Origin: an uncultured Acidobacteriaceae bacterium
GTDB taxonomy: Bacteria > Acidobacteriota > Terriglobia > Terriglobales > Acidobacteriaceae
Assembly: GCA_903904755.1 (NCBI GenBank)
Contig: CAIVDV010000073.1
Location: forward strand, 1 to 64,000
Reading direction: 5' to 3'
Length of the DNA stretch: 64,000 bases
This document shows positions 43,758 to 61,543 of the stretch, one piece after another. The notes beneath the pieces were generated by a model. It worked only from the letters and a program-made list of their open reading frames with translations. It had not been told where the DNA came from and searched no databases. How positions within the stretch are numbered: the stretch's first letter is position 1; every line of letters starts with the position of its first letter. The position numbers and the translations under genes were made by a program.

Positions 43758-46226
43758 CTATTTTGCTGCAACGACCTCGAAATTCGCTTGCTGATCGGCC
43801 AGCGAACTGCCGCCTATCCATACCGTGTAGTGCGTTGGCTCCACGGTGGGCGTGCCCTGCTGGGTGTAGAAGGACAGCTCTTCAAAGCCCAGCGGGAAAG
43901 TGACCTTGCGTGATTCCCCGGGGGCCAGGGTGATGCGGGTAAAGCCCTTGAGGGCTCGGACCGGCTGTTCCAGGCTGGCGCCAAGATTCCGCACGTAGCA
44001 TTGCACGACTTCAGTGCCGGGGCGGTTGCCGGTGTTGGTTACCGTGGCCGTCGCTTCCAGCAGGGGCTGGTTGTGGTGCGCCAACGCCTGGGCGAGCGGA
44101 ATTCTGGGCTGGGAAACGGCGACGTTCTGGTAGGCGAAGGTGGTGTAGCTCAACCCAAAGCCGAAGGGGAAGAGCGCAGTGTTGGGCACGTCTATGTAGC
44201 GGGATACGAAGCGGGAGTTGTCTCCGGGCGGCTTGGAGAGGTCAATGCCGGTAGCCGGGCGGCCGGTGGGGAACTGGTTATAGTAGAGCGGCTCCTGGCC
44301 GAGGGCCCGGGGGAAACTCATGGGCAGCTTGCCCGTGGGCACCACCTCGCCCGCAAGAACGTTGGCGATGGCGTTGCCCGCCTCAGTGCCCGGGAACCAG
44401 GCCTCAAGAATTGCGGATACGTGGGAGGCGGCCCAGGTGAGCACAAGCGGCCGGCCAGAGAAAACAACCAGAACGACGGGCTTGCCCGTCCCCACCACCG
44501 CCTCAAGCAGTTGCTCCTGGTTGCCGGGCAGGTCCAGGTAGGCGCGCGAGCCCGCTTCTCCGCTCATGGAGTTGGATTCGCCCAGGGCCATCACAACCAG
44601 ATCTGCGGATTGTGCGGTCTTGACCGCTTCGGCAAAGCCGGCCGTGGAGTCGCTCTCAATCTCCGTTCCCTTCGCGTAAAGCAGAGAGCCGGCGGCCTGT
44701 TTCAGGCGTTCCTCCAAAGCGTTGCGCAGGGTGATGATGTCCTTGTCCTGGCCCGCTCCGCCCCAGGCGCCAATCATCTCGGCACCGTTGTCAGCCAGGG
44801 GGCCAATCAAGGCAATCTGTTTGTGGTCCAGGCCCACGGGCAGCAAGGCATTTCCAGCAACATGTGGCTCATTCTTGAGCAGCACCAGCGATTCTTCGGC
44901 GCCCTTTCGGACCAGCGGGCGGTGCTCCGGCACGGCAGAAGTGACTTCGGGAGCATCGGCGTAGGGGTGCTCGAAGAGTCCTGTGGCAAACTTCACCCGC
45001 AGAACCCGCCGCACCGCCTCATCGACGACGGCCATTGGCACCTGACCGGATCGGATGAGAGCCGGCAGCTGGGTGTCGTAGAAGTGCGACATCATGTCTA
45101 CCTCAACGCCGGCGGTGAGTGCCTTGCGCGTGGCGGTCGCGGCGTCCAGGGCGATGCCGTGGTTGGTCAGCTCCATCACGGCTGTGTAGTCGCTGACCAC
45201 GAAGCCGTTGAAGCCCCATTCCTTGCGCAGAACCTTGTCGAGCAGAAAGGGATTGGCAGTGGCGGGAAGGCCATTGAGCGAGTTGAAGGCGCTCATCATG
45301 GTGGCGGCGCCCTGCTTGACGGCTGCCTCGTAGGGCTGCAGATAGACCTGCCGCAGCGAAACCTCAGACATATCGGTTGTGTTGTATTCGCGGCCGGCCT
45401 CGGCTGCTCCGTAGGCGGCAAAATGCTTTACCGACGCAGCCACATTGCCGGGCTCAGCGAGGCTGTTGCCCTGGTAACCGCGGATGTAAGCGCGAGCCAT
45501 TGCCGCGCCGAGGTACGGGTCTTCTCCGGCACCTTCAACGGTGCGTCCCCAGCGGGGGTCGCGGCTGATGTCAACCATCGGCGAGTAAAACCAGCGGACG
45601 CCGGCCGTGGTGGCCTCGTTTGCGGAGATGTGCGCCAGTTGCGCAACCAGCTCCGGATCAAAGCTGGCGGCCAGGCCCAGCGGCACGGGATAAATCGTCC
45701 GGTAGCCGTGGATCACATCCGCGCCAAACAGGAGGGGGATGTGGAGGCGGCTCTTCTCTACCGCGAGGTGCTGAAACATGTTGGTGCGGTCTTTGCCCAC
45801 GGTATTGAGCATGGAGCCGAGACGGCCTTCCGCAGCCAGCTTCTTGGAGTTGACCGGGGAAGTGGTCTCAGGATTTTTGGCTGCAATCCCCTGGGGCTGT
45901 TCCACGGCAGCGCCATCCGCGCCGGGGCCGTCGCCGGGGTCGTTGTACTGCACCAGTTGCCCAATCTTCTCGTCGAGGGTCATCTTGCGGAGAAGTTCTT
46001 CGACACGCGCGTTGAGTTTGGGATCAGCGAGCTGCGAGTTTGCCGGCGGGGTGGACTGCCGTTGCGGGGTGGTTTGGGCCGCGGAGGTCAAGGGCAAAAG
46101 GACGACCGCCGCCCAGGAAAACCCGACGAACGCCGCGATACGCAGAAGATGACAGTTCCAGGGGTTGGCAATGGACTCGGCAGCAAGGCCGAGTACCTGA
46201 CTCCGCGAGTGGTTTATGGATGGCAT
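43758..46226 (-). CDS. GH3 beta-glucosidase (BglX-like)
   Basis: The 822-aa exported enzyme has a signal anchor (IAAFVGFSWAAVVLLPLTSAAQ), the GH3 N-domain (KMTLDEKIGQLVQY, FGADVIHGYRTIYPVPLGLAASFD, VKHFAAYGAAEAGREYNTTDMS), the nucleophile D346 in FVVSDYTAV, a GH3_C domain (GPLADNGAEMIGAWGG, VALGESNSMSGEAGSR) and a terminal fibronectin-III-like domain. The order is that of periplasmic BglX. GGGAG lies seven bases before ATG 46226; the frame is open further upstream but overlaps the GH39 promoter region. It diverges from the GH39 gene, and a degenerate copy of the shared operator lies 52 bases upstream. Cello- or beta-gluco-oligosaccharides are the likely substrate. Confidence 0.92.
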   Translation of the reverse strand: MPSINHSRSQVLGLAAESIANPWNCHLLRIAAFVGFSWAAVVLLPLTSAAQTTPQRQSTPPANSQLADPKLNARVEELLRKMTLDEKIGQLVQYNDPGDGPGADGAAVEQPQGIAAKNPETTSPVNSKKLAAEGRLGSMLNTVGKDRTNMFQHLAVEKSRLHIPLLFGADVIHGYRTIYPVPLGLAASFDPELVAQLAHISANEATTAGVRWFYSPMVDISRDPRWGRTVEGAGEDPYLGAAMARAYIRGYQGNSLAEPGNVAASVKHFAAYGAAEAGREYNTTDMSEVSLRQVYLQPYEAAVKQGAATMMSAFNSLNGLPATANPFLLDKVLRKEWGFNGFVVSDYTAVMELTNHGIALDAATATRKALTAGVEVDMMSHFYDTQLPALIRSGQVPMAVVDEAVRRVLRVKFATGLFEHPYADAPEVTSAVPEHRPLVRKGAEESLVLLKNEPHVAGNALLPVGLDHKQIALIGPLADNGAEMIGAWGGAGQDKDIITLRNALEERLKQAAGSLLYAKGTEIESDSTAGFAEAVKTAQSADLVVMALGESNSMSGEAGSRAYLDLPGNQEQLLEAVVGTGKPVVLVVFSGRPLVLTWAASHVSAILEAWFPGTEAGNAIANVLAGEVVPTGKLPMSFPRALGQEPLYYNQFPTGRPATGIDLSKPPGDNSRFVSRYIDVPNTALFPFGFGLSYTTFAYQNVAVSQPRIPLAQALAHHNQPLLEATATVTNTGNRPGTEVVQCYVRNLGASLEQPVRALKGFTRITLAPGESRKVTFPLGFEELSFYTQQGTPTVEPTHYTVWIGGSSLADQQANFEVVAAK

Positions 46227-46277
46227 GTGCGTTCTCCCTGGAGTGAAATGAGAGGCGTCAGGCTTTCTGGCGCGCTT

Positions 46278-46293
46278 GCGCAATCGTTTGCGC
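46278..46293. promoter_or_regulatory. LacI-family operator copy before GH3
   Basis: GCGCAATCGTTTGCGC matches its own reverse complement at 14 of 16 positions and shares the core GCGCAATCG with the stronger sites at 46456 and 57538. It is positioned to control the minus-strand GH3 gene. Confidence 0.6.
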
Positions 46294-46455
46294 TCGAAGG
46301 TTTCTTGTATCACCCGCGCTTGAGCCACGTCAAATGGAAGTTGCCCAGGCGAGACAACCGGGGGGCCGGCGGACATCCTGGCCCGGCTGGAATTGACGCT
46401 GAGACCAGTCGAAAGGCGCGGTTGACAGGGTAAGTTGGAGCGTGGTTCAATTGCC

Positions 46456-46475
46456 TTGCGCAATCGATTGTGCAA
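46456..46475. promoter_or_regulatory. LacI-family operator before the GH39 operon
   Basis: TTGCGCAATCGATTGTGCAA is a 20-bp palindrome (9 of 10 half-site positions agree) with the central CG typical of LacI operators. Its exact reverse complement recurs at 57538-57557. It lies 141 bases before the GH39 start; the LacI gene at 49655 is the obvious candidate regulator. Confidence 0.75.
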
Positions 46476-46615
46476 TCCTCGGCAAAGCCCGTTTGCCGTG
46501 GCAGGTTTCCGCCCATGGCACCGTTTGCAATGCCCCATTTGCAGACCTCCTGCAAGGGCGCGCGATAACCTTCCCATAACCGGAACCGCCGGAATGAAAC
46601 CCTGGAGCTGCTTCC

Positions 46616-48136
46616 ATGAATCTGTTGCGATCCGCCGCTTTTGGATTTTCCCTGAGCTTGGCTGCGGGAAATCTGCCGGCATGGAGCCAGCAAGTGGCTA
46701 CCCCTGCGCTCTCGATAGATGCCGCATCCCCGGCTACGCCGCTGCCCCACTTCTGGGAGCAGGTCTTCGGCTCTGGCCGCGCCGTTCTCGCTTTGCGCGA
46801 AAACTATCGCAAAGATCTGAAGGACGTTCACGATGCGATCGGGACCCGCTACGTTCGCTTCCACGCAATCCTGCACGACGAAGTGGGGGTCTACGACGAA
46901 GACGAGCAGGGAACGCCGGAGTTCAACTTCTCCTACGTCGACCAGATTTACGATGGGCTGCTGGCGCAGGGAGTACGGCCCTTTGTCGAAATCAGCTTCA
47001 TGCCCCGCAAACTTGCTGCGCGGGAAGCGATTCACCCGTTCTGGTACAAGCAGAACGTTGCCCCCCCAAAGGACTACGCGCGCTGGGACAAGCTCATGCA
47101 GGCATTCGGCGAGCACCTGGTTGCCCGCTACGGCATCGACGAGGTAGCGCAGTGGTACTTCGAAGTCTGGAACGAGCCGAACATCGACTTCTGGGCGGGT
47201 GAGCCCAAACAGGCAACGTATTTTGAGCTCTACGACCATACCGCGCGGGATCTGAAAGCTGTGAACCCGCGGCTGCGCGTTGGCGGGCCGTCCACCGCGG
47301 CCGCGCACTGGATTCCCGAGTTTCTGGACCACGCGGCGAAACAGCATGTACCCGTGGATTTTGTTTCCACCCATGGCTACGCCGATGACTCCGTGGAAGA
47401 CTACTTCGGGACACACGAGGACATCCCCATGCGGGATCGTGTTTGCCGGGCGATTCGCAAGGTCCACGGGGAGATTGGCGCCTCCCCGCTGCCCGGTTTG
47501 CCGCTGATGTGGACGGAGTGGAACGTCCCCAGCTACGACCGGCTGAATGCACGAGACAACTGGTATGTCGGCCCGGCCCTCGCGCGCGACATCACCCAGT
47601 GCGACGGGGCGGTTACGCAGATGTCCTGGTGGACATTCGACGATGTCTTTGAGGAGAACGGTGTGGCGCCGACTCCCTTCAGCGGCACGTTTGGCCTGAT
47701 AGCGCTCGGACGCATCCGAAAGCCCAGCTATTACGACTTTGCGCTGCTGCATACCCTCGGCGACGAGCGCCTGGCCAATCCGGCGGAGAACCTGCTGGTG
47801 ACCCGCCGCAAGGACGGCACGCTCGTGGTGGCCGCCTGGAATCTCGTGGATATGGACAAGGTGGACGGGGCCGGGCCGCAGACGGTTACCCTTGTCTTTC
47901 ACGGTGTGCCGGCCGGCGCGCGGGTGAAAATACAGCGCGTGGATGAGACGCACGGCAATCCCATGCCCACCTACCGCGCCCAGGGGAGCCCCCGCTACCC
48001 TACCCCCGCGCAGGTCGATGCCATGAATCGCGCTTCCACCCTGCCGGTGTCCGAAGAGCGGCGGTTGGATGGGGGAAGGTTGGAACTGACCCTGCCGGTG
48101 AATGGACTGGCGGTCGTGGAGGTGAAAGTCCGATGA
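46616..48136 (+). CDS. GH39 beta-xylosidase-like glycosidase
   Basis: The 506-aa exported enzyme (signal SAAFGFSLSLAAGNLPAWS) is a clan-A (beta/alpha)8 hydrolase. The acid/base is E187 in YFEVWNEPNI and the nucleophile is E301 in LMWTEWNVPS. Other GH39 hallmarks are PLPHFWEQVFGSGRA near the N-terminus and FVSTHGYADD. A short C-terminal beta-sandwich follows. GH39 enzymes release xylose from xylo-oligosaccharides, with some acting on other glycosides. An operator precedes the gene and its stop overlaps the next ATG by four bases, so the two enzymes are made together. Confidence 0.9.
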   Translation: MNLLRSAAFGFSLSLAAGNLPAWSQQVATPALSIDAASPATPLPHFWEQVFGSGRAVLALRENYRKDLKDVHDAIGTRYVRFHAILHDEVGVYDEDEQGTPEFNFSYVDQIYDGLLAQGVRPFVEISFMPRKLAAREAIHPFWYKQNVAPPKDYARWDKLMQAFGEHLVARYGIDEVAQWYFEVWNEPNIDFWAGEPKQATYFELYDHTARDLKAVNPRLRVGGPSTAAAHWIPEFLDHAAKQHVPVDFVSTHGYADDSVEDYFGTHEDIPMRDRVCRAIRKVHGEIGASPLPGLPLMWTEWNVPSYDRLNARDNWYVGPALARDITQCDGAVTQMSWWTFDDVFEENGVAPTPFSGTFGLIALGRIRKPSYYDFALLHTLGDERLANPAENLLVTRRKDGTLVVAAWNLVDMDKVDGAGPQTVTLVFHGVPAGARVKIQRVDETHGNPMPTYRAQGSPRYPTPAQVDAMNRASTLPVSEERRLDGGRLELTLPVNGLAVVEVKVR

Positions 48137-49455
48137 TACGTTCGAAGAGTTCAAATGCCCTGCCCCAACTGAACCGGCGAGAGATGCTGCTGGCCCTGGG
48201 TGCAACCGCCGGGTGCGCGCTGGGCCTGGAAGGGTGCGCGTTTGGCCTTGAGACCACCAAAATCCCGCTGAGCCAGGGCGATCAGGCATTCCTCGACGAC
48301 CTGGAGCGGCAGGGATGCCTCTTCTTCTGGGAGCAGGCCAGCCCGCTCACCGGCCAGGTTCTCGATCGCGCGCGGAACGATTTGGCAGGCGCTCGCGATC
48401 CCCGCCGAATGGCCAGCATCGCGGCCACGGGGTTTGGCCTGACGGCCCTTTGCATCGCAGATCACCGCGGCTACCTGCCGCACGCGCAGGTGGTGGAGCG
48501 CGTACGCACAACACTGGACTGGCACCTGAACCAATTCCCGGAAGTCCACGGCTTCTTCTACCACTTCAGCGATATTGAAACCGGCAAGCGCGTGGATGGG
48601 GTTGAGTTGTCGTCCATCGATACCGCGCTGCTGCTTTGCGGGGTGCTCACCGCTCGCGCCTACTTTGACGACCCGCGAATCCACAGTCTGGCCCAGCAGA
48701 TTTACGAGCGCGTGGATTGGCCGTGGATGCTGAACGGGGGCAAGACTTTCTCGATGGGCTGGCATCCCGACAAAGGGTTTCTGGATTCCCGCTGGGACAA
48801 GTATTGCGAGCTCATGATGATCTACCTTCTCGCAATCGGCTCACCGACGCACCCTGTGGCCCCGGAGTTCTGGAGCCACTTTGAGCGCCCGGTGATTCAT
48901 TACAAGGGCTATGACTTCATCAGCGGCAACGACCCGCTCTTCACGCACCAGTATTCCCATGCCTGGTACGACTTCCGCAACAAGCGGGACGCCTATGTGA
49001 ACTACTTCGCCAACTCGGTGACGGCAACCAGGGCGCACAAGGCCTTCTGCCTCTCCTACCCGAATTGGTACAACGAGGACTACTGGGGCATCACCGCGTC
49101 CGACTACCAGGGCGGCTACACGGCATGGGGCGGCCCTCCGGCGCAGGGTCCGCTGGACGGCAGTGTTGTGCCTTCCGCGGCTGCAGGATCGCTGGCGTTT
49201 CTTCCCGTCGAGTGCATCTCTGTCCTGAAGGCGATGCAATCGAAATGGGGCAAGCAGGCGTGGGGGCGATACGGCTTTGTGGACTGCTTCCACCCGGCTG
49301 CAAACTGGTACGACACCGATGTGCTCGGCATTGACCAGGGCATCTCCGTGCTGATGGTGGAGAACCTCCGCTCCTCGTTCGTGTGGGAGACATTTATGCG
49401 CAACCAGGAGTGCAGCAAGGCCATGGCCAAGGCTGGATTTACCAGCAAGGCCTGA
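48133..49455 (+). CDS. Glycoamylase-like (PF10091) protein, GH144-type, probable Tat lipoprotein
   Basis: The 440-aa protein starts with a twin-arginine motif (NRREMLLALGATAG, RR at 15-16) and a likely lipobox LEGC with Cys35. The rest is an (alpha/alpha)6 barrel matching the glycoamylase-like family: FLDDLERQGCLFFWEQA, RRMASIAATGFGLTALCIA, GFFYHFSDIETGKR, ELSSIDTALLLCGVL, FTHQYSHAWYDFRNKRD, WGITASDYQGGYTAWGGPP, YDTDVLGIDQGISVLMVENL. Characterised relatives include GH144 endo-beta-1,2-glucanases, so a beta-glucan is a reasonable substrate, not proven. It is translationally coupled to GH39 through an ATGA overlap. Tat plus lipidation would anchor a folded enzyme at the membrane. Confidence 0.85.
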   Translation: MIRSKSSNALPQLNRREMLLALGATAGCALGLEGCAFGLETTKIPLSQGDQAFLDDLERQGCLFFWEQASPLTGQVLDRARNDLAGARDPRRMASIAATGFGLTALCIADHRGYLPHAQVVERVRTTLDWHLNQFPEVHGFFYHFSDIETGKRVDGVELSSIDTALLLCGVLTARAYFDDPRIHSLAQQIYERVDWPWMLNGGKTFSMGWHPDKGFLDSRWDKYCELMMIYLLAIGSPTHPVAPEFWSHFERPVIHYKGYDFISGNDPLFTHQYSHAWYDFRNKRDAYVNYFANSVTATRAHKAFCLSYPNWYNEDYWGITASDYQGGYTAWGGPPAQGPLDGSVVPSAAAGSLAFLPVECISVLKAMQSKWGKQAWGRYGFVDCFHPAANWYDTDVLGIDQGISVLMVENLRSSFVWETFMRNQECSKAMAKAGFTSKA

Positions 49456-49654
49456 GGGTTGAAACTGACGTGGACGTGGACTGGCCGCGAAGAGGATAAT
49501 GCCGCTAGAAGCAATCGGCTGCCAGGATATTCCCCCACCGTTAACGCGACCGATGTATTGAACCCGGCTTGTCCTCATTCCCCAGGGGACGAAGCCCGCA
49601 CCCAACCCGGACAGAGGCGAATTTCCGCCGCCCGAGTCCCCCGGACGCAGGAAC

Positions 49655-50749
49655 GTGCTGAAAAAGATACGCACACAAATCACGCTGAAAGAGCTGGCGG
49701 CGCTGCTCCAACTTTCACAGTCCACGGTATCCCGCATTGTCAATGGCGAGGGGGCTGCGCACCGCATTGCTGAAGAGACCCAGCAACGCGTTCTGCATGC
49801 TGCGGCGCTGCACGGTTACCAGGCAAACTCCGTGGCTCGCAGCTTGAGGCAGAAGCGAAGCTACACGATTGGCGTGATTGTCCCGGAAATCAGCGAGGGC
49901 TACTCGACAGCGGTCTTGAGCGGCATCGAGGATGAGCTGCTCAAGGATGGCTTTTTCTACTTTGTGGTCAGCCATCGGCATCGAAACGATCTCCTTGAGG
50001 GCTATCCGCACATGATGCTGGCCCGATCGGTGGAGGGCATCATCGCCGTCGACTCGCCGATTGAGGCGGAGCTGCCCGTTCCTGTCGTCTCAGTCTCTGG
50101 ACATCAGCGGCGCGAGGGCGTCATCAACATTGAGTTGCACCACGACACAGCTGCACACCTGGCACTGTCGCATCTGAAGGCGCTGGGGCACAGGCAGATT
50201 GCGTTCATCAAAGGCCAGAGTTTCAGTTCGGACACGAACCCCCGATGGCAGGCAATCGTGGATATGGCGCAGGCGCTGGACATGCACGTTGATCCTTCGC
50301 TTGTGGTGCAGTTGCAGCGGCCTGATCCGGGGCCCGAGCCGGGCATGGAAATTACCCAGGAATTGCTGAAGCGCAATCGTCCCTTCTCGGCAATTTTCGC
50401 CTTCAATGACATGACGGCAATCGGTGCAATCCTGGCATTGCGGGAGGCCGGCCTGCGCGTGCCCAAAGACATTTCGGTGATGGGCTTTGACGACGTACTT
50501 GCCGCATCCACAAATTCTCCGGCGCTGACCACCATCCATCAGCCCTTGCGCAATATGGGCCAGGTGGCCGCCACAACGCTGCTGTCGCTGATTCGCGATC
50601 AGCTCCCACACCCGCATCCCGGCGCGATTACGGTTCATCCCAGACTGATCGTGCGCAAGTCCACGGGCCATGTTGCAAAACCGGCTACCGGTTCCTCTGC
50701 ACACGCTGCCGGCGAGGCCAACTCCGCGCCGCCGCTTGCTATGGATTAG
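49655..50749 (+). CDS. LacI-family transcriptional repressor
   Basis: The 364-aa regulator begins at GTG 49655 with AGGA five bases upstream. Residues about 8-55 form the LacI HTH and hinge (TLKELAALLQLSQSTVSRIV, HGYQANSVARSLRQ). The periplasmic-binding-protein-like core follows (YTIGVIVPEISEGYSTAVLS, HLKALGHRQIAFIKGQ, AIFAFNDMTAIGAILALREA, MGFDDVLAASTNSPALTTIHQPL). It probably releases DNA when an oligosaccharide or sugar binds. It sits between the GH39 operon and CRTAC1/TonB genes, and 20-bp LacI-type palindromes flank both. I infer it regulates GH3, GH39, the glycoamylase-like gene and TonB receptor 3. No copy of the site was seen before lacI itself. Confidence 0.92.
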   Translation: MLKKIRTQITLKELAALLQLSQSTVSRIVNGEGAAHRIAEETQQRVLHAAALHGYQANSVARSLRQKRSYTIGVIVPEISEGYSTAVLSGIEDELLKDGFFYFVVSHRHRNDLLEGYPHMMLARSVEGIIAVDSPIEAELPVPVVSVSGHQRREGVINIELHHDTAAHLALSHLKALGHRQIAFIKGQSFSSDTNPRWQAIVDMAQALDMHVDPSLVVQLQRPDPGPEPGMEITQELLKRNRPFSAIFAFNDMTAIGAILALREAGLRVPKDISVMGFDDVLAASTNSPALTTIHQPLRNMGQVAATTLLSLIRDQLPHPHPGAITVHPRLIVRKSTGHVAKPATGSSAHAAGEANSAPPLAMD

Positions 50750-50761
50750 GTGGATACAGCT

Positions 50762-52504
50762 GTGTTCACTCCTCGCAAATCTGCGCCTCGCATGCGCAAC
50801 TGGCACTGGCCGACGATTGTGGCTGCGCTTTTGTCGCTGACGGGGCACGCCCATGCCCAGCAGTCGGCTTCGGTGGCTCCGCAAAGCACTGCGCCGCAGA
50901 GCGCAATCCGCTTTGAGGAGATAGCAGCAAAGGCCGGTCTGCGATATGTCACCGCCACCGCCAGCACTGAAAACAAGAATCAACCGCAAACCATGGTCGC
51001 TGGCGTTGCACTGCTGGACTACGACGGAGACGGCTATCTGGATATCTACCTCGTCGGTGGCGCAGCCCTGCCGTCACTTATCAAAGATTCACCTGTCTAC
51101 TGGAATCGCCTCTTCCACAACAATCACGATGGAACATTTACCGATGTTACGGAGAAGGCCGGCGTTGCAGGCGCGGGCTACGGCAGCGGCGTTGCCGTAG
51201 GCGACTACGACAACGATGGCTGGCCAGACATTTTCCTCGCAAATGTGGCGAGCAATCAACTCTTCCACAACAACGGCGACGGTACCTTTACGGATGTGAC
51301 CGCAAAGGCAGGCATGCAGGGCGCAAACCTGGACGGCAAAAAGATGTGGTCGGCTGGTGCGGGATGGGTGGACTACAACAACGATGGGAAGCTCGATCTC
51401 TTTGTTGTGAACTACTGCAAGTGGGAAGTGAACAAGGATCCTGTCTGTTATCTGAAAGACGGGGTGCGCGGATTCTGCCATCCCCGCCTCTACGCCCCGC
51501 TGCACAACACGCTCTATCGCAACAACGGCGATGGAACATTCACCGACGTCTCGGAAGAAACCGGCATCGCACACCTCTACGGCAAGGGCATGAGCGTGAC
51601 CTTTGCCGACTATGACGGGGATGGTTTCATGGATGCCTTTGTTGCCAACGACACAACGCCGAATTTTCTCCTCCACAACGTGCGCGGCAAAAAGTTTGAA
51701 GAGGTCGGCGTGGCGGCGGGCGTGGCATATTCCGCTGACGGCGCGGCGCTTTCCAGCATGGGAGCGGACTTCCGCGATGTCAACAATGATGGCCTGCCCG
51801 ACATCTGGTATACGGCGGTGGAGCGTGAAGGATTTCCGCTGAACATCAACTCTGGCAAAGGCGAATTCGTCGATATGACGGTGGCGGATGGACTCGGAAA
51901 GACCACCGACATGTCCGGCTGGGGCAACGGTTTTGCGGACTTGGATAACGATGGCTGGAAAGATCTTTTTGTCGCCCGCGCAAATGTCATGGACAACATC
52001 GCCGAAGCAAATCCTGCGCGGCGCTATGGCGAGCCGAACACCATCTTTCAAAACGTTGGGCAGGGTAGATTTCAGGATGTGAGCGCACAGGCTGGAGCTG
52101 ATTTTCAGCGCGAGGCCGCGCATCGCGGGGTGGCCTTCGGAGACATCTTCAACACCGGCCGCATCGACATGGTGGTATCCGTTCTCAATGGCCCCGCCGA
52201 GTTGTTCCACAATGTGTCCGAGACCGGCAATCACTGGATTCTGCTCAAGCTCACCGGCACCAAAAGCAACCGCATGGCGATCGGCGCGCAGATTAAAATC
52301 ACCGCCGAAGACGGCACCGTGCAGTGGAATGAAGTCACCACCGCCATCGGCTACGCTTCGTCAAGCGACCCTCGCGTGCACTTTGGCCTGGGCAAAAACA
52401 AACGCCTCCGCGAGATTGAAATCCGCTGGCCCAGCGGCATCCGCCAGGTCCTTACAGATCAGGACGTTGATCGCATCCTGCCCATCAAAGAGCCTGCTAA
52501 ATAG
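50762..52504 (+). CDS. CRTAC1-family secreted FG-GAP/ASPIC-UnbV protein, third copy
   Basis: The 580-aa exported protein (signal WPTIVAALLSLTGHAHAQ) carries FG-GAP/VCBS blades with calcium loops (DYDGDGYLDIYLVGG, DYDNDGWPDIFLANV, DYNNDGKLDLFVVNYCKW, DYDGDGFMDAFVANDTTPNF, DLDNDGWKDLFVARAN) and a C-terminal ASPIC/UnbV domain (IGAQIKITAEDG, RVHFGLGKNKRLREIEIRWPSG). It starts right behind lacI: GTG 50762 has TTAGGTGG just upstream, GTG 50750 and ATG 50792 being alternatives. Co-transcription with lacI is likely. It closely resembles the two copies at 24-27.6 kb. A surface or periplasmic ligand-binding role in the same locus as TonB receptor 3 is inferred. Confidence 0.86.
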   Translation: MFTPRKSAPRMRNWHWPTIVAALLSLTGHAHAQQSASVAPQSTAPQSAIRFEEIAAKAGLRYVTATASTENKNQPQTMVAGVALLDYDGDGYLDIYLVGGAALPSLIKDSPVYWNRLFHNNHDGTFTDVTEKAGVAGAGYGSGVAVGDYDNDGWPDIFLANVASNQLFHNNGDGTFTDVTAKAGMQGANLDGKKMWSAGAGWVDYNNDGKLDLFVVNYCKWEVNKDPVCYLKDGVRGFCHPRLYAPLHNTLYRNNGDGTFTDVSEETGIAHLYGKGMSVTFADYDGDGFMDAFVANDTTPNFLLHNVRGKKFEEVGVAAGVAYSADGAALSSMGADFRDVNNDGLPDIWYTAVEREGFPLNINSGKGEFVDMTVADGLGKTTDMSGWGNGFADLDNDGWKDLFVARANVMDNIAEANPARRYGEPNTIFQNVGQGRFQDVSAQAGADFQREAAHRGVAFGDIFNTGRIDMVVSVLNGPAELFHNVSETGNHWILLKLTGTKSNRMAIGAQIKITAEDGTVQWNEVTTAIGYASSSDPRVHFGLGKNKRLREIEIRWPSGIRQVLTDQDVDRILPIKEPAK

Positions 52505-52525
52505 CGGCTCTTGATGCGGACCTCC

Positions 52526-53704
52526 TCAATAGGTCGCCGCCGTTTCTGCGGAGCTTTCCGCATTCAATCGCTCAAACTCCGCGCGCGCTCTGGCCGCCTC
52601 TTCCCGCCGCCCAGCGCGTGAGTACGCAGAGCCCAGCGCGAAGAAAACCTTCTTCTCTTTCGGGAAAGCCTTCGCCGCAATCTCCAGTTCAGGAATCGCC
52701 GCCGCATAGTCGTCCGCTTCCAACAGCAGCAGCCCCAGCAGATAGTGTGCGAACGGGAGCTGCGGACTCAGGGCTACGGCCTGCTGCGCGTAGGGCAAAG
52801 CCGCGGCAGAATCCACTTTGTAGAGGTTCGCGGCTATTTCGAGACGGGCCGCAACATGCGCTTCATCCTGGGCAATCTGCAGTTTGAATTGCTCCACGGC
52901 CGCAGGCAGTTGGTTCGCACTTACCAGCATCACTCCGTAAGCGTAGTGCAGGTTGGCAAAATTGGGAAACTCCGTGAGGATGTCCTGATAGAGACGTCCG
53001 GCATCCTCATATTTCTTCTCCGCATTCAAGCACGCGGCTTTGCCCACGCGCCGCACCAGCCACTTTGTCTGCGCATCCTCCTGGGTTCCGGGAGCGCGTC
53101 GCAGCACGGCACGCCCGAGCCCATCCAGTAACTCATCGTCTGCTGTATCGGTCTTGCACACTGCGTCGAAAGTTGTCTGGGCCTGCTTGTATTGCCCGGC
53201 GCGCAACAGCAAAACGCCCTCGTGAAAGATGGCAACCTGCTGCAACTGCGGGTCGTCGGCGACGCCCATGCTGCGCCCTTGCTGCAGGTGCACGAGCGCG
53301 GCTTTGTCCTGGCCCAACTCGAACTCGCACAGCCCCAGCATTACGCGGGCCGTTCCATCTTTGGGCGCGAGCGGCAACATGCGCCCCAGGGCCTGCGCGG
53401 CGGCGGCGTATTGATTGCGATCGTATTCAAGGGTGCCCAGCGACCACCAGCCCTCAACCCAGTTGGGACGCAGCGCGAGAGCCTTGCGAAAAAGGCTCAC
53501 CGCTTCGTCGAGATTGTCCGCGTCGCGGGCCGCTGCAGCCCTTGCTGCCAGAGACTGAAAATTGCCAGAGGAACTTTGCCCCGAATGCGCGGCGCCGCTC
53601 GCGACCTGTGCCAGTGCAACCCGGGATGCGGGCGGCAGCAGCGCAATCGCCACCACAGCAATCCCCACTCTCCATCGCATTCGATTCGGCTGGGAGACTC
53701 GCAT
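52526..53704 (-). CDS. Secreted TPR-repeat protein
   Basis: The 392-aa protein has a signal peptide (VGIAVVAIALLPPASRVALAQ) and TPR units across residues 60-385: DNLDEAVSLFRKALALRPNW, NQYAAAAQALGRMLPLAPKD, GQDKAALVHLQQGRSMGVAD, KYEDAGRLYQDILTEFPNFA, DDYAAAIPELEIAAKAFPKE. ATG 53704 follows AAAGGAAC. It is convergent with the CRTAC1 gene (21-base gap) and lies just downstream of TonB receptor 3 on the same strand, separated by two hairpins. A periplasmic scaffold working with the receptor or CRTAC1 protein is a positional inference. Confidence 0.82.
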   Translation of the reverse strand: MRVSQPNRMRWRVGIAVVAIALLPPASRVALAQVASGAAHSGQSSSGNFQSLAARAAAARDADNLDEAVSLFRKALALRPNWVEGWWSLGTLEYDRNQYAAAAQALGRMLPLAPKDGTARVMLGLCEFELGQDKAALVHLQQGRSMGVADDPQLQQVAIFHEGVLLLRAGQYKQAQTTFDAVCKTDTADDELLDGLGRAVLRRAPGTQEDAQTKWLVRRVGKAACLNAEKKYEDAGRLYQDILTEFPNFANLHYAYGVMLVSANQLPAAVEQFKLQIAQDEAHVAARLEIAANLYKVDSAAALPYAQQAVALSPQLPFAHYLLGLLLLEADDYAAAIPELEIAAKAFPKEKKVFFALGSAYSRAGRREEAARARAEFERLNAESSAETAATY

Positions 53705-53766
53705 CGTTCCTTTCGGCGCCGGGCTGTGACTGCTTGCGCCCGCTTCCACTCTAATAGAAAATCCGC

Positions 53767-53800
53767 CGGCGATGCAGCCCGTGCGAAGGGCGCATCGCCG
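53767..53800 (-). repeat. Inverted repeat upstream of the TPR gene
   Basis: CGGCGATGC (53767-53775) pairs with GCATCGCCG (53792-53800), loop 16 bases. It sits between the receptor terminator and the TPR start, so it may be a second terminator stem or a 5' leader structure. Confidence 0.5.
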
Positions 53801-53824
53801 ACGGTCAGGAAGGCATCGGTTGAG

Positions 53825-53850
53825 CTGCCCGGAGGGATGCCCCCGGGCAG
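53825..53850 (-). terminator. Hairpin after TonB receptor 3
   Basis: CTGCCCGG (53825-53832) pairs with CCGGGCAG (53843-53850), 19 bases past the receptor stop on the minus strand. The stem is GC-rich without a strong T-run, so read-through into the TPR gene is possible. Confidence 0.6.
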
Positions 53851-53868
53851 GTTGAGGTTGACCCCGGA

Positions 53869-56800
53869 TTAGAACTTGAAGTGAGCTTCCACTTCTACCG
53901 TTCGGGATCCGAGTACGTTGTTGGCCCGGCCAAAAGTCGAATCAGTGATGCCGGTATCGACGTTGGTCAGGTTCAGCTTGTTGAAGAGGTTAAAGGCATT
54001 GGCGCGGATTTCGAGGCGGGCGTTCTCCCCAAGCACCTTCATGGTGGGAAGGCCGAAAGCCTTGGTCATGGCCAGATCAAGGTCAGAGTAGCGAGGACCA
54101 ACAAATGCGTTGCGGTCAATTCCCGGGGTCTGCGGAAGCGCGCTGGGAGTGGGTGCAACGTCGGTGGTCCATGCCTGGCCATTCACAACCGCAGGAGGCG
54201 TGAAGTACGCGGTGCCACCCTTAGGGAAGTGGCCGGCAGCGGTCTTGAAGGAATCCGTGCTCTGTTTGCTGCCCGCTCCACCCGTGTAAGCAGCCGGACG
54301 CATGTTGCAGTTTCCGCTGTTCTGGTAGAAGGCGTTGCAGCCGATTCCGCCGTAGGTGGGGTTGAACGGGAAGCCAGAGTGGAGGTTGAAGATGGGGCTG
54401 AGCGTCCAGCCGCCAACTGCCTTTTCCAACCAGCCCTGTTCGCCGTGGAAGATTACAGGTGACCACACGCCAAACACCTTGAACATCTGACGGGAGTCAA
54501 AGTCAGACGGTCCGTGGTTGTAGCCGGGCAGGAACTGGTAATCGGTTGTGGTGTAGGGGCCGGAGCCGTCATCGGTGGACTTCGCCAGGCGATATTGGGC
54601 GTCCGCTTCAAACGTGTGAGCAAACTGGTGACGAACTTCGAGGAGAATCGAATTGAAGTTCGAGTGACCCGTTCCCTCGTACCAGTCAATGTAGTTGACG
54701 ATTGGGTTGAAGGCGATTTGTCCAGCAAGAATTGCCGGTGCCAGTTCGTTGTTCAGGTTGTTTTGCAGCGGCAGGTGCCGCCCCTTGCTTCCCTGGTACC
54801 CGACCGTGGCAACCCACTGGTGGCCAAGGTCATACTGCCCTTCCAGCGAGTACCGGTAGACGTAGGCAGTCGGCAGGTTCGCCGGCAAACCGGTGATTCC
54901 CGTGGGGATGCCGTTGGTGGGCAGGTTGGCTGCATTGAAGCTGGTGATCATGTTCGGGTTGGCCGGCAATCCACCAGCCTGGTAGATATTGCTGGCGGCG
55001 CCATACAGAATCTGATCGCCGACCAGGCTTGAACCGTTGGCCAGGTACGGCGGATTGTTACGGGTGTTCGTGGTGATGGCCTGCTCAAGCCCGCTGAAGC
55101 CGATACCAGCGCCGCCGCGAACCACGAGACGGTTCTGGTACTTCACAGGACTCCACGCAAAGCCAATCTGCGGACCAAAGTTGAACTTGGGAGGGTTCAC
55201 CTGCGAACCGCCCAGCTTGATGTAAAGGTCGGTAAGGATCGATGAGCCCTGGCCGAGACGTACGTTGGGCTCGTTGCCCTTCTTCTCGGTCATGCCGCCG
55301 AAATACTCCCAGCGCAGGCCCGCGTTGACCGTCAGGTTCGGACGCACTTTCCAGTCATCTTGAACGAAGAGCGCGAAGACGTTCTGGCGGTCATCCTTGC
55401 GGAATTCAGAAGGCTGCCCAGTGCGCGGATCAGCGGTAATGCTCTCCAACTGCGGGGCATCGTTCAGGAAGTCCCACATGTTGTTGAAGTTGTAGGAGGG
55501 CTCTGCATCCCAGGTCGGCGCATCAAGATACGCCAGCCGGGTTACCTGACCACCAAACTTCAGGCTGTGGCTCTTGTGCACCTTGCTGACCATGTCCTTC
55601 ACGTTGAAGGTCCACTGGTCAAACATGCTGCCGATGCTCGGTCCAAAGTTCTGAACGCCGGCCGTGCCGTAGGGCGAGCCAAAGCCGCCGTTGGGGCCGT
55701 TGTAGGAGCTGGTGATGTTGTCGTCGGGCAGGCCCAGCGGAGATTGCGGGTTGTCGGCCAGTTCGTTCCACTTCCAGCCGGCCAGGTCCACACGGGCTTC
55801 GTTCAGCGTCGTGTCATTGAAGGTGTGGTTCCAAAGCGCGCCGGTGGAGTAGTTCTTCGCGTTGTGGTGGAAGATGTTGGACGCGCGATTGGGCCCGTTA
55901 TAGCTGCTGTTGTTGACTGGAACATAGTACAGGCTGCCCGCCAGCAAATCCTTGCTGGTCATCTGGTAGTCCAGGCGGCCGTTGTACTGCACATTGATGT
56001 TCTGGGTTGGGTTCACGGTGGCTACGTAGAATATGTCGGCCTTGCCGTCAAAGTTCTGAACGCTGCCGGTGCCGTCGCCGCCAAGTCCGGGCATGTAGAC
56101 CCCGGTTGTCGGGTTCTTGCCGTTGTAGGAAGGATCGTGCTTGCCCAAACCGATGGTGAGCGGGCTGCCCACATCCAGACCAGCCCCGGCAATGGTAATG
56201 CAGGTGACGCCTTCTTCAAGACCGATATCCGTGCAGCTGTGGTGGTCTGAGGGGCCCTGCAGAATCTTGTTGTAGACCGCCCCAGCACCCTTGATGGTGA
56301 GGAACTTTGAGGCAATGCTGCTGCCGGTCGAGAGACCGTCGAAGGTCGGGGTCTCGTACCAGCCGCCGCCGGTGGAGGTGGAGTGGTTCCGGATCGTCTC
56401 ATACGAGAAGAACCCGAAGACTCTGTTGTGCCAAATCGGGCCACCCAAAGTGCCGCCCATCTGGTTGAAGCGGGAGTTGTCGCGCTGCGGGTTGTTGTTC
56501 GGATCCCAGCGCTGATAGGCGTTCAGTCCGGGGCGATCAAGCTTGATGAATGCCGTCCCGTGGTAATCGTTGGTGCCGTTCTGCGAGATAACCTGAATCT
56601 GCGCGCCACTCACGCGGCCAAACTCAGCGTCATAACTGTTGGCGGCTACCTTCATCTCCTTGATGGAGTCTTCACTGGGGGTGATCACGGCCGCGCCGGC
56701 CCAGGTAACGCTGGTGATGGAAACGCCGTCGAGCGAGATGCCGTTGGTGTCAGGCCGGCCACCTGCGCCGCTGCTCTGCGGCCGGTTTTCCGTCTGGAAG

Positions 56801-57438
56801 ACGCCGGCCGTGTTGCCCGAGCCACCGGGGCCCTGGTTGCCGGCAAGGCTGTTGGTGCCGCCGCCGGAGCCTTGCGAACCATCGCCAAACATACCAGGCG
56901 CCAGTTGAACAAGCTGGAAGACGTCGCGCCCAAAGGACGGCATCTTGGCAATGTCGTTGGAATCAAGCGTTCCGCTGATGGCGCCTGTTTCCGTATCAAG
57001 AGCCGGCTCTACGGAGGCGTTGACGGTCACAGTCTCTTCCTTGCCGCCCACTTCCAGGCGCACATTCAGAGCATTGGCCTGTTCGGCCAGGATCTTCAAA
57101 TCGTCAATCACCTTTGATTTGAAGCCGTCGCGCGAAATTTCAACCTTGTAGACGCTGGGAGCCAGAGCGCTGAAGGCGAAATCGCCCGCGCTGTTGCTCG
57201 TCGTCTCAAGCGTGCGGTTGGTTTCCTTGTCAATCAGTTTCAGACTGGCCCCGGGGATAAGCGCTCCGCCGGAGTCGGCTACCGTTCCCTGCAGGCTCGC
57301 GCTGTACTGTGCCCGGGCAGGGACGGCCACGAAGCAAAGCAGCAACAGCGCCGAAAGCCAAAAGGCAATCCGCGCCGATGCGAGCTCTACACTCTTTCGA
57401 CCGTGGGTAAGATCGCTGTTTGGTTCAAGAACTTGCAT
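53869..57438 (-). CDS. TonB-dependent receptor 3, Oar-like
   Basis: The 1,189-aa outer-membrane receptor has an N-terminal signal (ARIAFWLSALLLLCFVAVPARA), a carboxypeptidase-regulatory-like domain (LQGTVADSGGALIPGASLKL, about 48-130), a plug with a Gly-rich loop (SLAGNQGPGGSGNTAGVF) and a barrel ending VEVEAHFKF. It is clearly a paralogue of receptor 1: both share the Gly-rich loop, the ADIF/ADLV and QQFNGRLDY/VQYNGRLDY segments and the YNFNNMWD motif. AGGAGACC precedes ATG 57438. Two LacI-type operators lie 80-120 bases upstream, so it is probably induced with the glycosidases as the uptake port for the released oligosaccharides. Confidence 0.93.
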   Translation of the reverse strand: MQVLEPNSDLTHGRKSVELASARIAFWLSALLLLCFVAVPARAQYSASLQGTVADSGGALIPGASLKLIDKETNRTLETTSNSAGDFAFSALAPSVYKVEISRDGFKSKVIDDLKILAEQANALNVRLEVGGKEETVTVNASVEPALDTETGAISGTLDSNDIAKMPSFGRDVFQLVQLAPGMFGDGSQGSGGGTNSLAGNQGPGGSGNTAGVFQTENRPQSSGAGGRPDTNGISLDGVSITSVTWAGAAVITPSEDSIKEMKVAANSYDAEFGRVSGAQIQVISQNGTNDYHGTAFIKLDRPGLNAYQRWDPNNNPQRDNSRFNQMGGTLGGPIWHNRVFGFFSYETIRNHSTSTGGGWYETPTFDGLSTGSSIASKFLTIKGAGAVYNKILQGPSDHHSCTDIGLEEGVTCITIAGAGLDVGSPLTIGLGKHDPSYNGKNPTTGVYMPGLGGDGTGSVQNFDGKADIFYVATVNPTQNINVQYNGRLDYQMTSKDLLAGSLYYVPVNNSSYNGPNRASNIFHHNAKNYSTGALWNHTFNDTTLNEARVDLAGWKWNELADNPQSPLGLPDDNITSSYNGPNGGFGSPYGTAGVQNFGPSIGSMFDQWTFNVKDMVSKVHKSHSLKFGGQVTRLAYLDAPTWDAEPSYNFNNMWDFLNDAPQLESITADPRTGQPSEFRKDDRQNVFALFVQDDWKVRPNLTVNAGLRWEYFGGMTEKKGNEPNVRLGQGSSILTDLYIKLGGSQVNPPKFNFGPQIGFAWSPVKYQNRLVVRGGAGIGFSGLEQAITTNTRNNPPYLANGSSLVGDQILYGAASNIYQAGGLPANPNMITSFNAANLPTNGIPTGITGLPANLPTAYVYRYSLEGQYDLGHQWVATVGYQGSKGRHLPLQNNLNNELAPAILAGQIAFNPIVNYIDWYEGTGHSNFNSILLEVRHQFAHTFEADAQYRLAKSTDDGSGPYTTTDYQFLPGYNHGPSDFDSRQMFKVFGVWSPVIFHGEQGWLEKAVGGWTLSPIFNLHSGFPFNPTYGGIGCNAFYQNSGNCNMRPAAYTGGAGSKQSTDSFKTAAGHFPKGGTAYFTPPAVVNGQAWTTDVAPTPSALPQTPGIDRNAFVGPRYSDLDLAMTKAFGLPTMKVLGENARLEIRANAFNLFNKLNLTNVDTGITDSTFGRANNVLGSRTVEVEAHFKF

Positions 57439-57516
57439 AGTGGTCTCCTGAAGGATTGGTTGCGTGGTTCAACAAATTGGTCGCTCTTCTGTGAGTTTTT
57501 AAGCGTTATCCGAGCG

Positions 57517-57536
57517 GTGCGCAATCGATAGCGCAG
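57517..57536. promoter_or_regulatory. LacI-family operator, distal copy before TonB receptor 3
   Basis: GTGCGCAATCGATAGCGCAG has a central CG and 8 of 10 half-site positions agree. Its centre lies 21 bp from that of the next site, placing both on the same DNA face for cooperative binding. Confidence 0.65.
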
Positions 57537-57537
57537 A

Positions 57538-57557
57538 TTGCACAATCGATTGCGCAA
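57538..57557. promoter_or_regulatory. LacI-family operator, strong copy before TonB receptor 3
   Basis: TTGCACAATCGATTGCGCAA is the exact reverse complement of the site before the GH39 operon, about 11 kb away. A 20-of-20 match between two glycan-uptake promoters is strong evidence for a shared regulator. Confidence 0.75.
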
Positions 57558-57878: not shown

Positions 57879-59135
57879 ATGAACCGGTTGCGCAAGGAGA
57901 TGGAGGTCTTCCTGCAGTGCCCCCGCTCCATGCGCCTGCTGTTGATCGCGAACATGATTTATGCCCTTCTGCTGCCAATCATCGAGATTTTTGTCGCCGC
58001 CTATGTCATGCGGAACTCCCAGGCGGTTTCCCTGGTGGTGACCTATCAACTGGCGGTCTATGCGGCCACACCGGTAGCCTTCCTGGCCAACGGATTTCTG
58101 CTCGGACGGGTGGAAGCGAAGCACCTCTATGCCGCCGGAATGGTGCTTTCCGGCCTCGCAATCGTATGGATGATGCGCTCAGGAACGCTGTCGCTGCTCG
58201 ATATTGCCACTTCCGGCCTCATGATGGGTCTGGCCACGGGCCTCTTCTGGGCCAACCGCGGATTCCTGGCCCTCGCCTCAACCCAGGACAACAACCGTAA
58301 CTACTACTACGGCGTGGAGTTGTTTGTCGCGATGCTGGCATCCGTCGTGGTGCCCGCTTTGGTCGGCTGGTTTCTCACCGCAACCGTGCGGTATGGATGG
58401 CTGGGCGGAGAGGTGAACCGTGCCTACCAGGGGATTGCCGGAATTTTCCTCGCGCTTACCGCGGCTTCCGCCCTGATTGTCCTGCGAGGGACTTTTCCCT
58501 CTCCGGCAAACACCCGCTTCCTCTTTCTTCACTTCCACCCGCTGTGGAGACGGATGCAGGCGCTGGCACTGCTCAAGGGCCTGGCCCAGGGATACATCCT
58601 CACTGCGCCGGCAATGCTCATCTTGCTTTTCGCCGGCAAGGAAGGAACCCTTGGCGCCACGCAGTCCATTGGCGGGGTGCTTGCGGCCTTCATGCTGTAC
58701 ACGGTGGGCCGGTCGGCAAGCCCCCGCCACCGACAGATTGTCTTTGCCGCCGGACTTCTCCTCTTCTTTGCCGGCGCGGCTTTCAACGCGGTGCTGTTCA
58801 ACGCGTGGGGAGTCCTGCTCTTCCTGGGCTGCCTTCTGCTTGCCAAACCGCTCCTTGACCTCGGCTATAACCCGATTGAAATGCGCATCATTGACGCAGT
58901 TTCCCAACTGGAGCACCGCAACCAGTACGCCTACTTCTTCAACCACGACCTTGCGCTGTTTGCCGGCAGGGCGGTTGGGTGCCTGTTCTTCCTTGCTTTG
59001 GCGCGCTGGGGCTCGCCGACGGTCGCTCTGCGGTATGCCATGCCGGTAATTGCACTCTTCCAACTGCTCTCCATCGCCATCGCCAGGCAGGCTCGTTCGG
59101 CGGAGTCCGCCTCAACTGCCGGAGTTGGAAAGTAG
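57879..59135 (+). CDS. MFS transporter
   Basis: The 418-aa protein has about eleven or twelve hydrophobic helices in the major-facilitator pattern (LLLIANMIYALLLPIIEIFV, LAVYAATPVAFLANGFLLG, GLMMGLATGLFWANRGFLAL, MLASVVVPALVGWFL, GVLLFLGCLLLAKPLLDLGY). The NRGF and FNHDLALFAGRAVGC segments look family-specific. It lies beside TonB receptor 3 and a GH3 operon and would suit inner-membrane import of mono- or disaccharides, but no sugar-binding signature can be identified. ATG 57879 has only weak GGGGC upstream. It converges on the GH3 gene across a perfect terminator. Confidence 0.82.
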   Translation: MNRLRKEMEVFLQCPRSMRLLLIANMIYALLLPIIEIFVAAYVMRNSQAVSLVVTYQLAVYAATPVAFLANGFLLGRVEAKHLYAAGMVLSGLAIVWMMRSGTLSLLDIATSGLMMGLATGLFWANRGFLALASTQDNNRNYYYGVELFVAMLASVVVPALVGWFLTATVRYGWLGGEVNRAYQGIAGIFLALTAASALIVLRGTFPSPANTRFLFLHFHPLWRRMQALALLKGLAQGYILTAPAMLILLFAGKEGTLGATQSIGGVLAAFMLYTVGRSASPRHRQIVFAAGLLLFFAGAAFNAVLFNAWGVLLFLGCLLLAKPLLDLGYNPIEMRIIDAVSQLEHRNQYAYFFNHDLALFAGRAVGCLFFLALARWGSPTVALRYAMPVIALFQLLSIAIARQARSAESASTAGVGK

Positions 59136-59255: not shown

Positions 59256-61526
59256 TTACTGCAGTGTGATGGCGTGGTTGAGCGGCAGACTCTGCGACGA
59301 GCCGCCGGCCAGAATGTTGTAGCTGCCGGGGACAAGCTTGAACGTGTCCGAGGCTTCGTCGTAGATAGTCAGCGTTGAGCGGTCAATAGGCACCGTAACC
59401 AGTTTCGATTCGCCCGGGCCCAGTTCAACGCGCGTCCATCCAATCAGCCGCTTGGGCGGCTCGTTGGCCGCTGCCGGCAGCGCCGCGTACACCTGCGCAA
59501 TCTCGGTTCCCGCGCGCGTGCCCGTGTTCTTCACGGTGAAGCTGACGCTCAGCGCATCCCCCGAAGTCACGTTCAGCCCCGAGTAGGCATAGGTCGTGTA
59601 GGAGAGGCCAAACCCGAACGGGAAAAGAACGGCCTTCTTCTGCGCGTCGTACCACTTGTAGCCGACCTCCAGCTTCTCGTCGTAGTAGGTCTCAAAAGCC
59701 GGCAGCCCCTTCGCCATCAGCGCCATGTAGCTGGAGATATCCGCGCCAGGCGCGGGACGCTGCGGCTGCGAAGCGGCCGGGGGTAGAACCAGGGTGGGGT
59801 GCGGCAGGTCGCTGTCACTCACCGGGAAGGTGATGGCGAGCTTGCCGGTCGGGTTTACCTTGCCGGTCAGGAGGTTGGCCAGCGCTTCCGCCCCGCGGAT
59901 GCCCGGATACCAGGCCTCGACTACACCCGAAACCTTCTCCACCCACGGCATCGTAGCCGGGCTGCCGGTTTCCAGCACTACGACCGTTTTGGCATTGGCT
60001 GCCGCAACGGCCTCAATCAGCTTGTTCTGCTCGTCGGCCAGGGCCAGGGTTTTCAGATCCATGCCTTCAGACTCGTGCTGGTAGCCAAAGACGATGGCAA
60101 CGTCCGCGGCCTTTGCGGCTGCCGTGGCTGCGGCCACGTCATCGCCAGCGACAAAGGATACCTTTGCCGAGGGAAGGGCGGCGGCCAGAGCGCGAAGCGG
60201 CGAACTGGGCAGCCAAACCTGGCGGCGCATGAAGTTGGCCATCGGCGGTGCTCCCGGAACAACCGGCGGCGGGGGAACAACCGAGCCGCCGGGGGCATCC
60301 ACCTGCGCGGAGCCGCCGCCAGTCAGCACGCCAACATCCGCATGGCCGCCGATGAGAACGACGGTACGGACACCTGCGCCGAGCGGGAGAATCCTGTGCT
60401 CGTTGCGCAGCAGAACAATGCTCTTCTCTGCCAGCTTCTGGGCCAGCGCGTAACCGCCCTCCACGTCAGGAACCTGCTTGACGACGGGGTTGTCAAACAG
60501 GCCGGTGGCGAAGATGGTCCGCACGATGCGGTGCACGTGGTCGTTGATCTCGTCCTGGGAGATTTCCCCGTCCTGCACTGCTTTCAGCAGCGCATCGCCG
60601 AAGAAGTTCTTGCCGGGCTGCTCCTGGTCCAGTCCTGCGTGTGATGCCTTGGCGGTGGAGTGCGTGCCACCCCAGTCGGAAAGCACGAAGCCCTTGAAGT
60701 GGAAGTCCTTGTGGAGAACATCGGTCAGCAGGTAGGAGTTTTCGCAGGCATAGTCGCCGTTCACCCGGTTGTAGGAGCACATGAAGGCTCCAGCGTCTGA
60801 GAGTTTCAGGGCGATATCAAAGGCCAGCAGGTCCGACTCGCGCATCGAGCGCTTGTCGATGTTGGCGTTCACGGCGTTGCGGCCGCTCTCCTGGTCGTTG
60901 ATGGCGTAGTGCTTCAGGTCGCCGATGATGTGCTGGGCCTGCACGCCCTTCACGAAGTTCCCAACCAGCGTTCCGGCCAGCAGCGGGTCTTCGCCCTGGT
61001 ACTCAAAGGTGCGCCCGTTTCGGGGCTCGCGGGGCAGGTTCACGCCGCCGCCGAGAGACATGCTGTAGCCCTGATTGCGAAGCTCGCGGCCAATCAGCGC
61101 GCCGTATTCGTAGGCAGCCTGCGGGTCCCACGCGGAGGCAGCGGCCAGGTTGTTCGGCAGCGCGGTGGAGTAGCGGCCAGAGGCATTGCCGCGGGTCACG
61201 CCGTAGGCGGAGTCGGCCATCTGGATGGCAGGGATGCCGAGGCGGGGAATGCTCACCGAGTACCCTGCCCCGCCGTTCGATTCCGAGGGGCCGGCGTTGT
61301 TGAACGAAGATCCCTGGCCATGCAGCAGCGAGATCTTCTCTTCGAGGGTCATTTCCTTGATGACCAGGTCGGCCCTGTCGTCTGGCGAGAGCGTGGCATT
61401 GGACCATGGGTATGTCTTCTGAGCTGGGGCACCGGGGAACTGGGCGGTGGCTGCGGGAGCGGCCACAAAAAGAGCGGCCAGGGCAATCGCCCCGGCCACG
61501 GAATGGATATTCGAAAAGAGTTTCAC
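59256..61526 (-). CDS. GH3 beta-glucosidase
   Basis: The 756-aa exported enzyme (signal VAGAIALAALFVAAPAATAQ) has the GH3 N-domain (VIKEMTLEEKISLLHGQGSS, LKHYAINDQESGRNAVNANI), the nucleophile D284 in FVLSDWGGTHS, the GH3_C domain (VVLIGGHADVGVLTGGGSAQ) and a fibronectin-III-like end (SVSFTVKNTGTRAGTEIAQV). This is the compact fungal/plant-type domain order without PA14. The start is GTG 61526 with AGG six bases upstream; a longer reading would begin inside the preceding esterase gene and lack a signal. It follows that esterase by 17 bases, so the two form an operon. Likely substrate: beta-glucosides or other short oligosaccharides. Confidence 0.9.
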   Translation of the reverse strand: MKLFSNIHSVAGAIALAALFVAAPAATAQFPGAPAQKTYPWSNATLSPDDRADLVIKEMTLEEKISLLHGQGSSFNNAGPSESNGGAGYSVSIPRLGIPAIQMADSAYGVTRGNASGRYSTALPNNLAAASAWDPQAAYEYGALIGRELRNQGYSMSLGGGVNLPREPRNGRTFEYQGEDPLLAGTLVGNFVKGVQAQHIIGDLKHYAINDQESGRNAVNANIDKRSMRESDLLAFDIALKLSDAGAFMCSYNRVNGDYACENSYLLTDVLHKDFHFKGFVLSDWGGTHSTAKASHAGLDQEQPGKNFFGDALLKAVQDGEISQDEINDHVHRIVRTIFATGLFDNPVVKQVPDVEGGYALAQKLAEKSIVLLRNEHRILPLGAGVRTVVLIGGHADVGVLTGGGSAQVDAPGGSVVPPPPVVPGAPPMANFMRRQVWLPSSPLRALAAALPSAKVSFVAGDDVAAATAAAKAADVAIVFGYQHESEGMDLKTLALADEQNKLIEAVAAANAKTVVVLETGSPATMPWVEKVSGVVEAWYPGIRGAEALANLLTGKVNPTGKLAITFPVSDSDLPHPTLVLPPAASQPQRPAPGADISSYMALMAKGLPAFETYYDEKLEVGYKWYDAQKKAVLFPFGFGLSYTTYAYSGLNVTSGDALSVSFTVKNTGTRAGTEIAQVYAALPAAANEPPKRLIGWTRVELGPGESKLVTVPIDRSTLTIYDEASDTFKLVPGSYNILAGGSSQSLPLNHAITLQ

Positions 61527-61543
61527 TTCGACCTGCCTTTTTG

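Follow-up and report, generated by a model that had tools for sequence, protein, structure and literature searches.

The locus between 43758 and 57557 is well supported, on comparative sequence grounds, as a locally autonomous LacI regulon. The LacI-family regulator encoded at 49655-50749 (+) very probably acts as a dimer on four copies (O1 to O4) of a CG-centred 18-bp palindrome with the consensus TGCGCAANCGNTTGCGCA, and would repress three units until a sugar is bound. Local LacI regulons are a known type of system, and the locus is not a surprising one. All coordinates refer to the window, i.e. the whole stretch of 64,000 nt that was analysed.

The first-pass annotation had described the sites as flanking a GH3 gene, a GH39/glycoamylase-like operon and a TonB-dependent receptor (TBDR) gene, with the LacI gene between them, and the Pfam assignments for GH3, GH39, LacI and TBDR agree with this. 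The GH3 protein (43758-46226, -) is beta-glucosidase-like and exported (PF00933, PF01915 and PF14310; NCBIfam BglX above cut-off). Its gene is divergent from that of a GH39 glycosidase (46616-48136, +; PF01229, E=1.6e-102), which has an apparent Sec signal and beta-xylosidases as its nearest solved relatives; O1 and O2 are located between the two. The GH39 gene overlaps by 4 bases with that of a PF10091 protein (48133-49455, +), which is similar to PDB 8xul and 5gzh and whose leader, as judged by eye, has an RR motif and is lipobox-like. A 199-bp gap, the LacI gene (PF00356, PF13377) and, directly 3' of it, the gene of a secreted FG-GAP/ASPIC-UnbV protein (50750-52504, +; Pfam) follow. The latter is possibly the last gene of the O2 operon, and such a gene is found close to LacI in 8 of 55 relatives of the R-type defined below. 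The TBDR (53869-57438, -; PF25183, E=3.4e-126; PF13620) combines a carboxypeptidase-regulatory domain with an OMP_b-brl_4 barrel. Downstream of it, a gene for a TPR protein (52526-53749, -; Pfam) is possibly the second gene of the O3/O4 unit. The eight proteins encoded between 43758 and 59135 that were scanned with Pfam include no SusD family member. The MFS gene at 57879-59135 was considered as a regulon member and rejected, as it is separated from the upstream sites by 330-350 bp and no more than 3 of the 55 R-type relatives have the gene.

An exact 20-bp repeat had been reported at the outset and is present in the window: TTGCGCAATCGATTGTGCAA at 46456-46475 (+) has its exact reverse complement at 57538-57557. 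Two related copies had also been listed; the one at 57517-57536 is confirmed, and the first one begins at 46276 instead of 46278. The 20-mer is itself a near-palindrome, with 2 mismatches against its own complement, so that the set of four sites carries more weight than the exact repeat and the element is the symmetric operator TGCGCAANCGNTTGCGCA. O1 (TTGCGCAATCGTTTGCGCTC; 46276-46295, +) is a weaker copy at the GH3 promoter, 59 bp before the GH3 start. O2 (46456-46475, +) is located 150 bp before the GH39 start, which is the edge of the usual LacI-family range. Upstream of the TBDR start, O3 (GTGCGCAATCGATAGCGCAG; 57517-57536, -), again a weaker copy, is found at 88 bp and O4 (57538-57557, -) at 109 bp, with 21 bp between their centres. 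All four sites have the central CG and all are intergenic, distributed between two promoter regions of this locus. Apart from O1 to O4, no 18-bp near-palindromes are found in these two intergenic stretches, and a promoter scan detected no sigma-70-like promoter beside the sites.

To assess the specificity of the motif, the whole genome (4,224,583 bases, 97.5% complete) was searched by pattern. At up to 2 mismatches to the perfect 18-bp palindrome, only O1 to O4 match; a pattern with a free NT-2, or with 3 mismatches, adds seven weaker matches, all of them inside ORFs. O1 to O4 are the sole credible sites in the 4.22-Mb genome. The genome-wide search that had been proposed to list the full regulon leads back to this locus, and the random scatter that had been named as counter-evidence is not observed. 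Intergenic palindromes also arise for other reasons, but a chance or structural origin of the palindromes (e.g. as terminators), with no regulator involved, can practically be dismissed: chance alone would give only 0.02 matches to TTGCGCAATCGATTGTGCAA with up to 3 mismatches in the window, the terminator scan around the sites gave no terminator-like element, and both sequence and position are conserved across dozens of species. Upstream of the other two TBDR genes of the window (16518 and 29879), only weak imperfect palindromes are found, none of which resembles the operator.

The conservation of the operator was analysed in LacI relatives taken from 100 whole genomes and a set of 84,980 species genomes. 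Removal of near copies left 93 LacI proteins, of which 56 are R-type (TVSR, with Arg at the position equivalent to AA-20) and 37 are non-R (L, F, V, I or M). With the TGCGCAA consensus defined from this window alone, and up to 3 mismatches allowed from -350 to +60 of the TBDR start, the operator precedes the TBDR gene in 37 of 40 R-type loci (shuffled rate 0.1%) compared to none of 27 non-R loci. Cultivated relatives with the operator include Granulicella sp. L46 and Edaphobacter aggregans DSM 19364. Sites also precede GH39, PF10091 and GH3 genes in relatives, an O1-equivalent site is present in L048/L068 and L088, and some relatives have sites between divergent LacI and TBDR genes. A strict palindrome scan left 16 of the 56 R-type loci without a site, many of these being short contigs that lack a TBDR start. 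Tandem sites spaced by 21-22 bp are a repeated feature, seen in about 11 loci: L053, L072, L081, L089, L092, L097, L100, L102, L104 and L110 have a second site at this distance, and a weaker one is present in L112 and L146. A spacing of 13 bp occurs in the non-R clade (L061, L133, L144). Repeats at a 12-bp offset (40 counts) were discarded as self-overlap of the TGCGCA half-site.

Independent support for the motif is provided by distant sites in three relatives, since these were not picked by LacI synteny; this account covers selected matches, besides which some other weak ones exist. In genome G006, LacI is encoded on a short contig and the sole exact operator match of the genome is located on another contig, approximately 100 bp before a TBDR gene (45% identical) that is followed by a GH39 gene (53% identical). 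In G004, a second locus has a site upstream of a GH3 gene. G004 and G010 further encode orthologous membrane proteins (L166:8675-9958, -, and L167:8652-9905, -; 48% identical), one of them with an HGSNAT_cat match. In both cases the operator is located at the start or shortly upstream of it, outside the LacI locus. They are a putative further regulon member in relatives.

The operator changes with the recognition helix of the regulator (LSQSTVSRIVN in the alignment). For the comparison of half-sites, the CG centre and the flanking AA/TT were fixed in the scan and NT-5 to NT-9 were left free. R-type half-sites have C at NT-5 in 80 of 80 cases, and their NT-6 is mostly G (52) or A (21). In non-R half-sites, A prevails at NT-5 (28/38) and T at NT-6 (31/38). 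In loci without Arg at AA-20 the operator is replaced by TACTAAANCGNTTTAGTA, which is found in 18 of 27 non-R loci versus 0 of 40 R-type loci, a descriptive count, as the TACTAAA consensus was derived from the same loci. This operator class has no match in the genome under study. On the tree, the two groups are split by one change, which rules out many independent switches; the switch is a single event, and the number of loci therefore overstates the independent evidence. A correlation of Arg at AA-20 with G at NT-6 was reported by Camas et al. 2010 (PMC2978694). With its TVSR helix and a G-rich NT-6, the present system follows this rule, and the operator is thus the one that the recognition code predicts for this LacI. 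AA-20 additionally tracks NT-5 here (C with Arg, A without), with one evolutionary switch behind it, whereas the published code links NT-5 mainly to AA-15/AA-16.

The co-variation ties the sites to this LacI protein. It also bears on the possibility that the palindromes are read by another LacI-type protein, the local one being a bystander. The genome has nine LacI-HTH matches and operators can be common to LacI paralogues, but we consider such a reading very improbable: the sites occur only at this locus, they accompany orthologues of the local LacI in other genomes, with an operator class that shifts with AA-20, and the nearest paralogues (C52, C35, C69 and C44) have V, L, L and I at AA-20, none of them R. 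With locus-specific sites that are conserved upstream of the same genes and co-vary with the recognition helix of the local regulator, the self-contained LacI-regulated unit postulated in the first-pass annotation gains support, as far as sequence comparison can provide it.

The regulator itself has an N-terminal HTH (PF00356, 30.4 bits versus a cut-off of 27) and a C-terminal periplasmic-binding-like sensor domain (PF13377, E=3.3e-30). In an alignment of 21 orthologues, L64 of the hinge helix is invariant and A61 nearly so; the corresponding Leu/Ala (AA-54/AA-51) go with a central CG in LacI-family operators (PMC2978694). Inspection of the C-terminal tail by eye revealed no leucine-repeat tetramerisation helix, which makes a dimer more likely. 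In the proposed mechanism, O1 would control GH3, O2 the operon of GH39, the GH144-like gene and LacI (possibly with UnbV), and the tandem pair O3/O4 the TBDR gene, possibly together with TPR. All three units would be repressed by LacI when substrate is lacking, and derepression would follow when a sugar or oligosaccharide that the enzymes have set free binds to the periplasmic-binding-protein-like domain. The LacI gene is located downstream of O2 and the 199-bp gap directly before it contains no site, so that self-control, known from 72% of LacI regulators (PMC4052901), would probably depend on transcripts that start at the GH39 promoter and read through. The distance between O3 and O4 corresponds to two helical turns, which makes cooperative binding of two dimers on one face of the DNA probable. 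Ravcheev et al. 2014 (PMC4052901) described site-spacing peaks at 13, 22 and 32 bp for the LacI family and read those at 22 and 32 bp as two-dimer cooperativity; the spacing of O3/O4 matches such a peak, and the tandem arrangement is thus already a known one.

Activation by LacI, or a DNA loop that joins O1 to O2 over 180 bp (about 17 helical turns), is an unlikely substitute for simple repression. Most LacI-family members are repressors, the 180-bp pair is found only in this genome and its near-copy, and a tetramerisation helix is apparently lacking. On the other side, the O1-O2 distance gives approximate helical phasing (180/10.5 = 17.1), and some LacI-family proteins do activate (e.g. PMC3737153).

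The PF10091 protein had initially been labelled 'glycoamylase-like'. Its best solved relative is XcSGL (XCC2207, PDB 8xul; E=1.8e-67), followed by CpSGL (PDB 5gzh; E=2.6e-41), both of which are GH144 beta-1,2-glucanases (PMC12102758). The clan GH-S residues of XcSGL (E239, F286 and Y367; PMC12102758) are kept as E226 (the general acid), F270 and Y329, and D163 is an acidic residue at the position of CpSGL E142. PDB 8xul has Gln at the Glu position, matching the E239Q mutant of PMC12102758. The protein is better read as GH144 endo-beta-1,2-glucanase-like; unlike XcSGL and CpSGL (PMC12102758), the predicted enzyme shares a LacI-linked operon with GH39. The PDB relatives of the GH3 protein include Lin1840 and a Bacteroides periplasmic beta-glucosidase. 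Both of these are presumably active on sophoro-oligosaccharides, which also become relevant as inducer candidates with the GH144-like reassignment. A beta-1,2-glucan or related beta-glucan is plausible and our best guess for the substrate, made with considerable reservation, and xylose-containing substrates are also in play, given the GH39 partner.

The locus shares several features with the local LacI carbohydrate regulons of PMC4052901: an even, CG-centred palindrome, a regulator beside glycosidase and transport genes, sites mostly 30-140 bp before the start, and a tandem spacing of 21-22 bp. It differs in that the transporter is a TBDR without SusD; likewise, it differs from a Bacteroidetes-type polysaccharide utilisation locus by the lack of a SusD-like lipoprotein beside the TBDR. 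The text of Ravcheev et al. 2014 contains no mention of Acidobacteria, and the literature compared (LacI-family regulons and recognition code) yielded no copy of the operator sequence. Acidobacteria, which are abundant as decomposers in soil, encode many TonB receptors whose cargo is still to be named. The repressor-operator pair, conserved across the family, offers a handle on when one TBDR is used, and the motif a way to find partner genes where these are scattered. The two operator classes lend themselves to testing how the LacI recognition code works at AA-20; the GH144-like enzyme hints at bacterial beta-1,2-glucans as a possible food. A broader and rather doubtful proposal is that the LacI clade and its TBDR form a widespread uptake-control module of Acidobacteriota, in which half-sites would have shifted from TGCGCAA to TACTAAA with the change from Arg to an aliphatic or aromatic AA-20, insulating related copies. 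The module would govern SusD-less import of the beta-1,2-glucan type and, in some species, be located beside polyketide or peptide clusters instead of glycosidases.

Several further observations were made in the window and in relatives. Genes of other glycan-active proteins without an operator are located at 36274-43398 and 59256-63160 (GH27, GH9, a GH3 with PA14, another GH3 and a carboxylesterase). Long ORFs at 20157-22334 (725 aa) and 27676-29043 (455 aa), near TBDR/UnbV genes, have no Pfam match. A probable inorganic carbon transporter subunit, DabA, is encoded at 8335-10929 (E=1.3e-253), together with a LysR-type regulator at 5777-6676. TBDR, FG-GAP/ASPIC-UnbV and TPR genes co-occur repeatedly, in the window (16518-36243 and 50750-57438) and in relatives, which suggests a functional trio. 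In Paracidobacterium acidisoli (L099:9974-19926), the orthologous LacI-TBDR pair with the same operator adjoins a type I polyketide synthase and not glycosidases. In Acidobacteriaceae KBS 83 (L113:9710-18609), pair and operator are found beside asparagine-synthase, transglutaminase-like and nucleotidyltransferase genes, a neighborhood suggestive of a lasso-peptide cluster rather than glycosidases.
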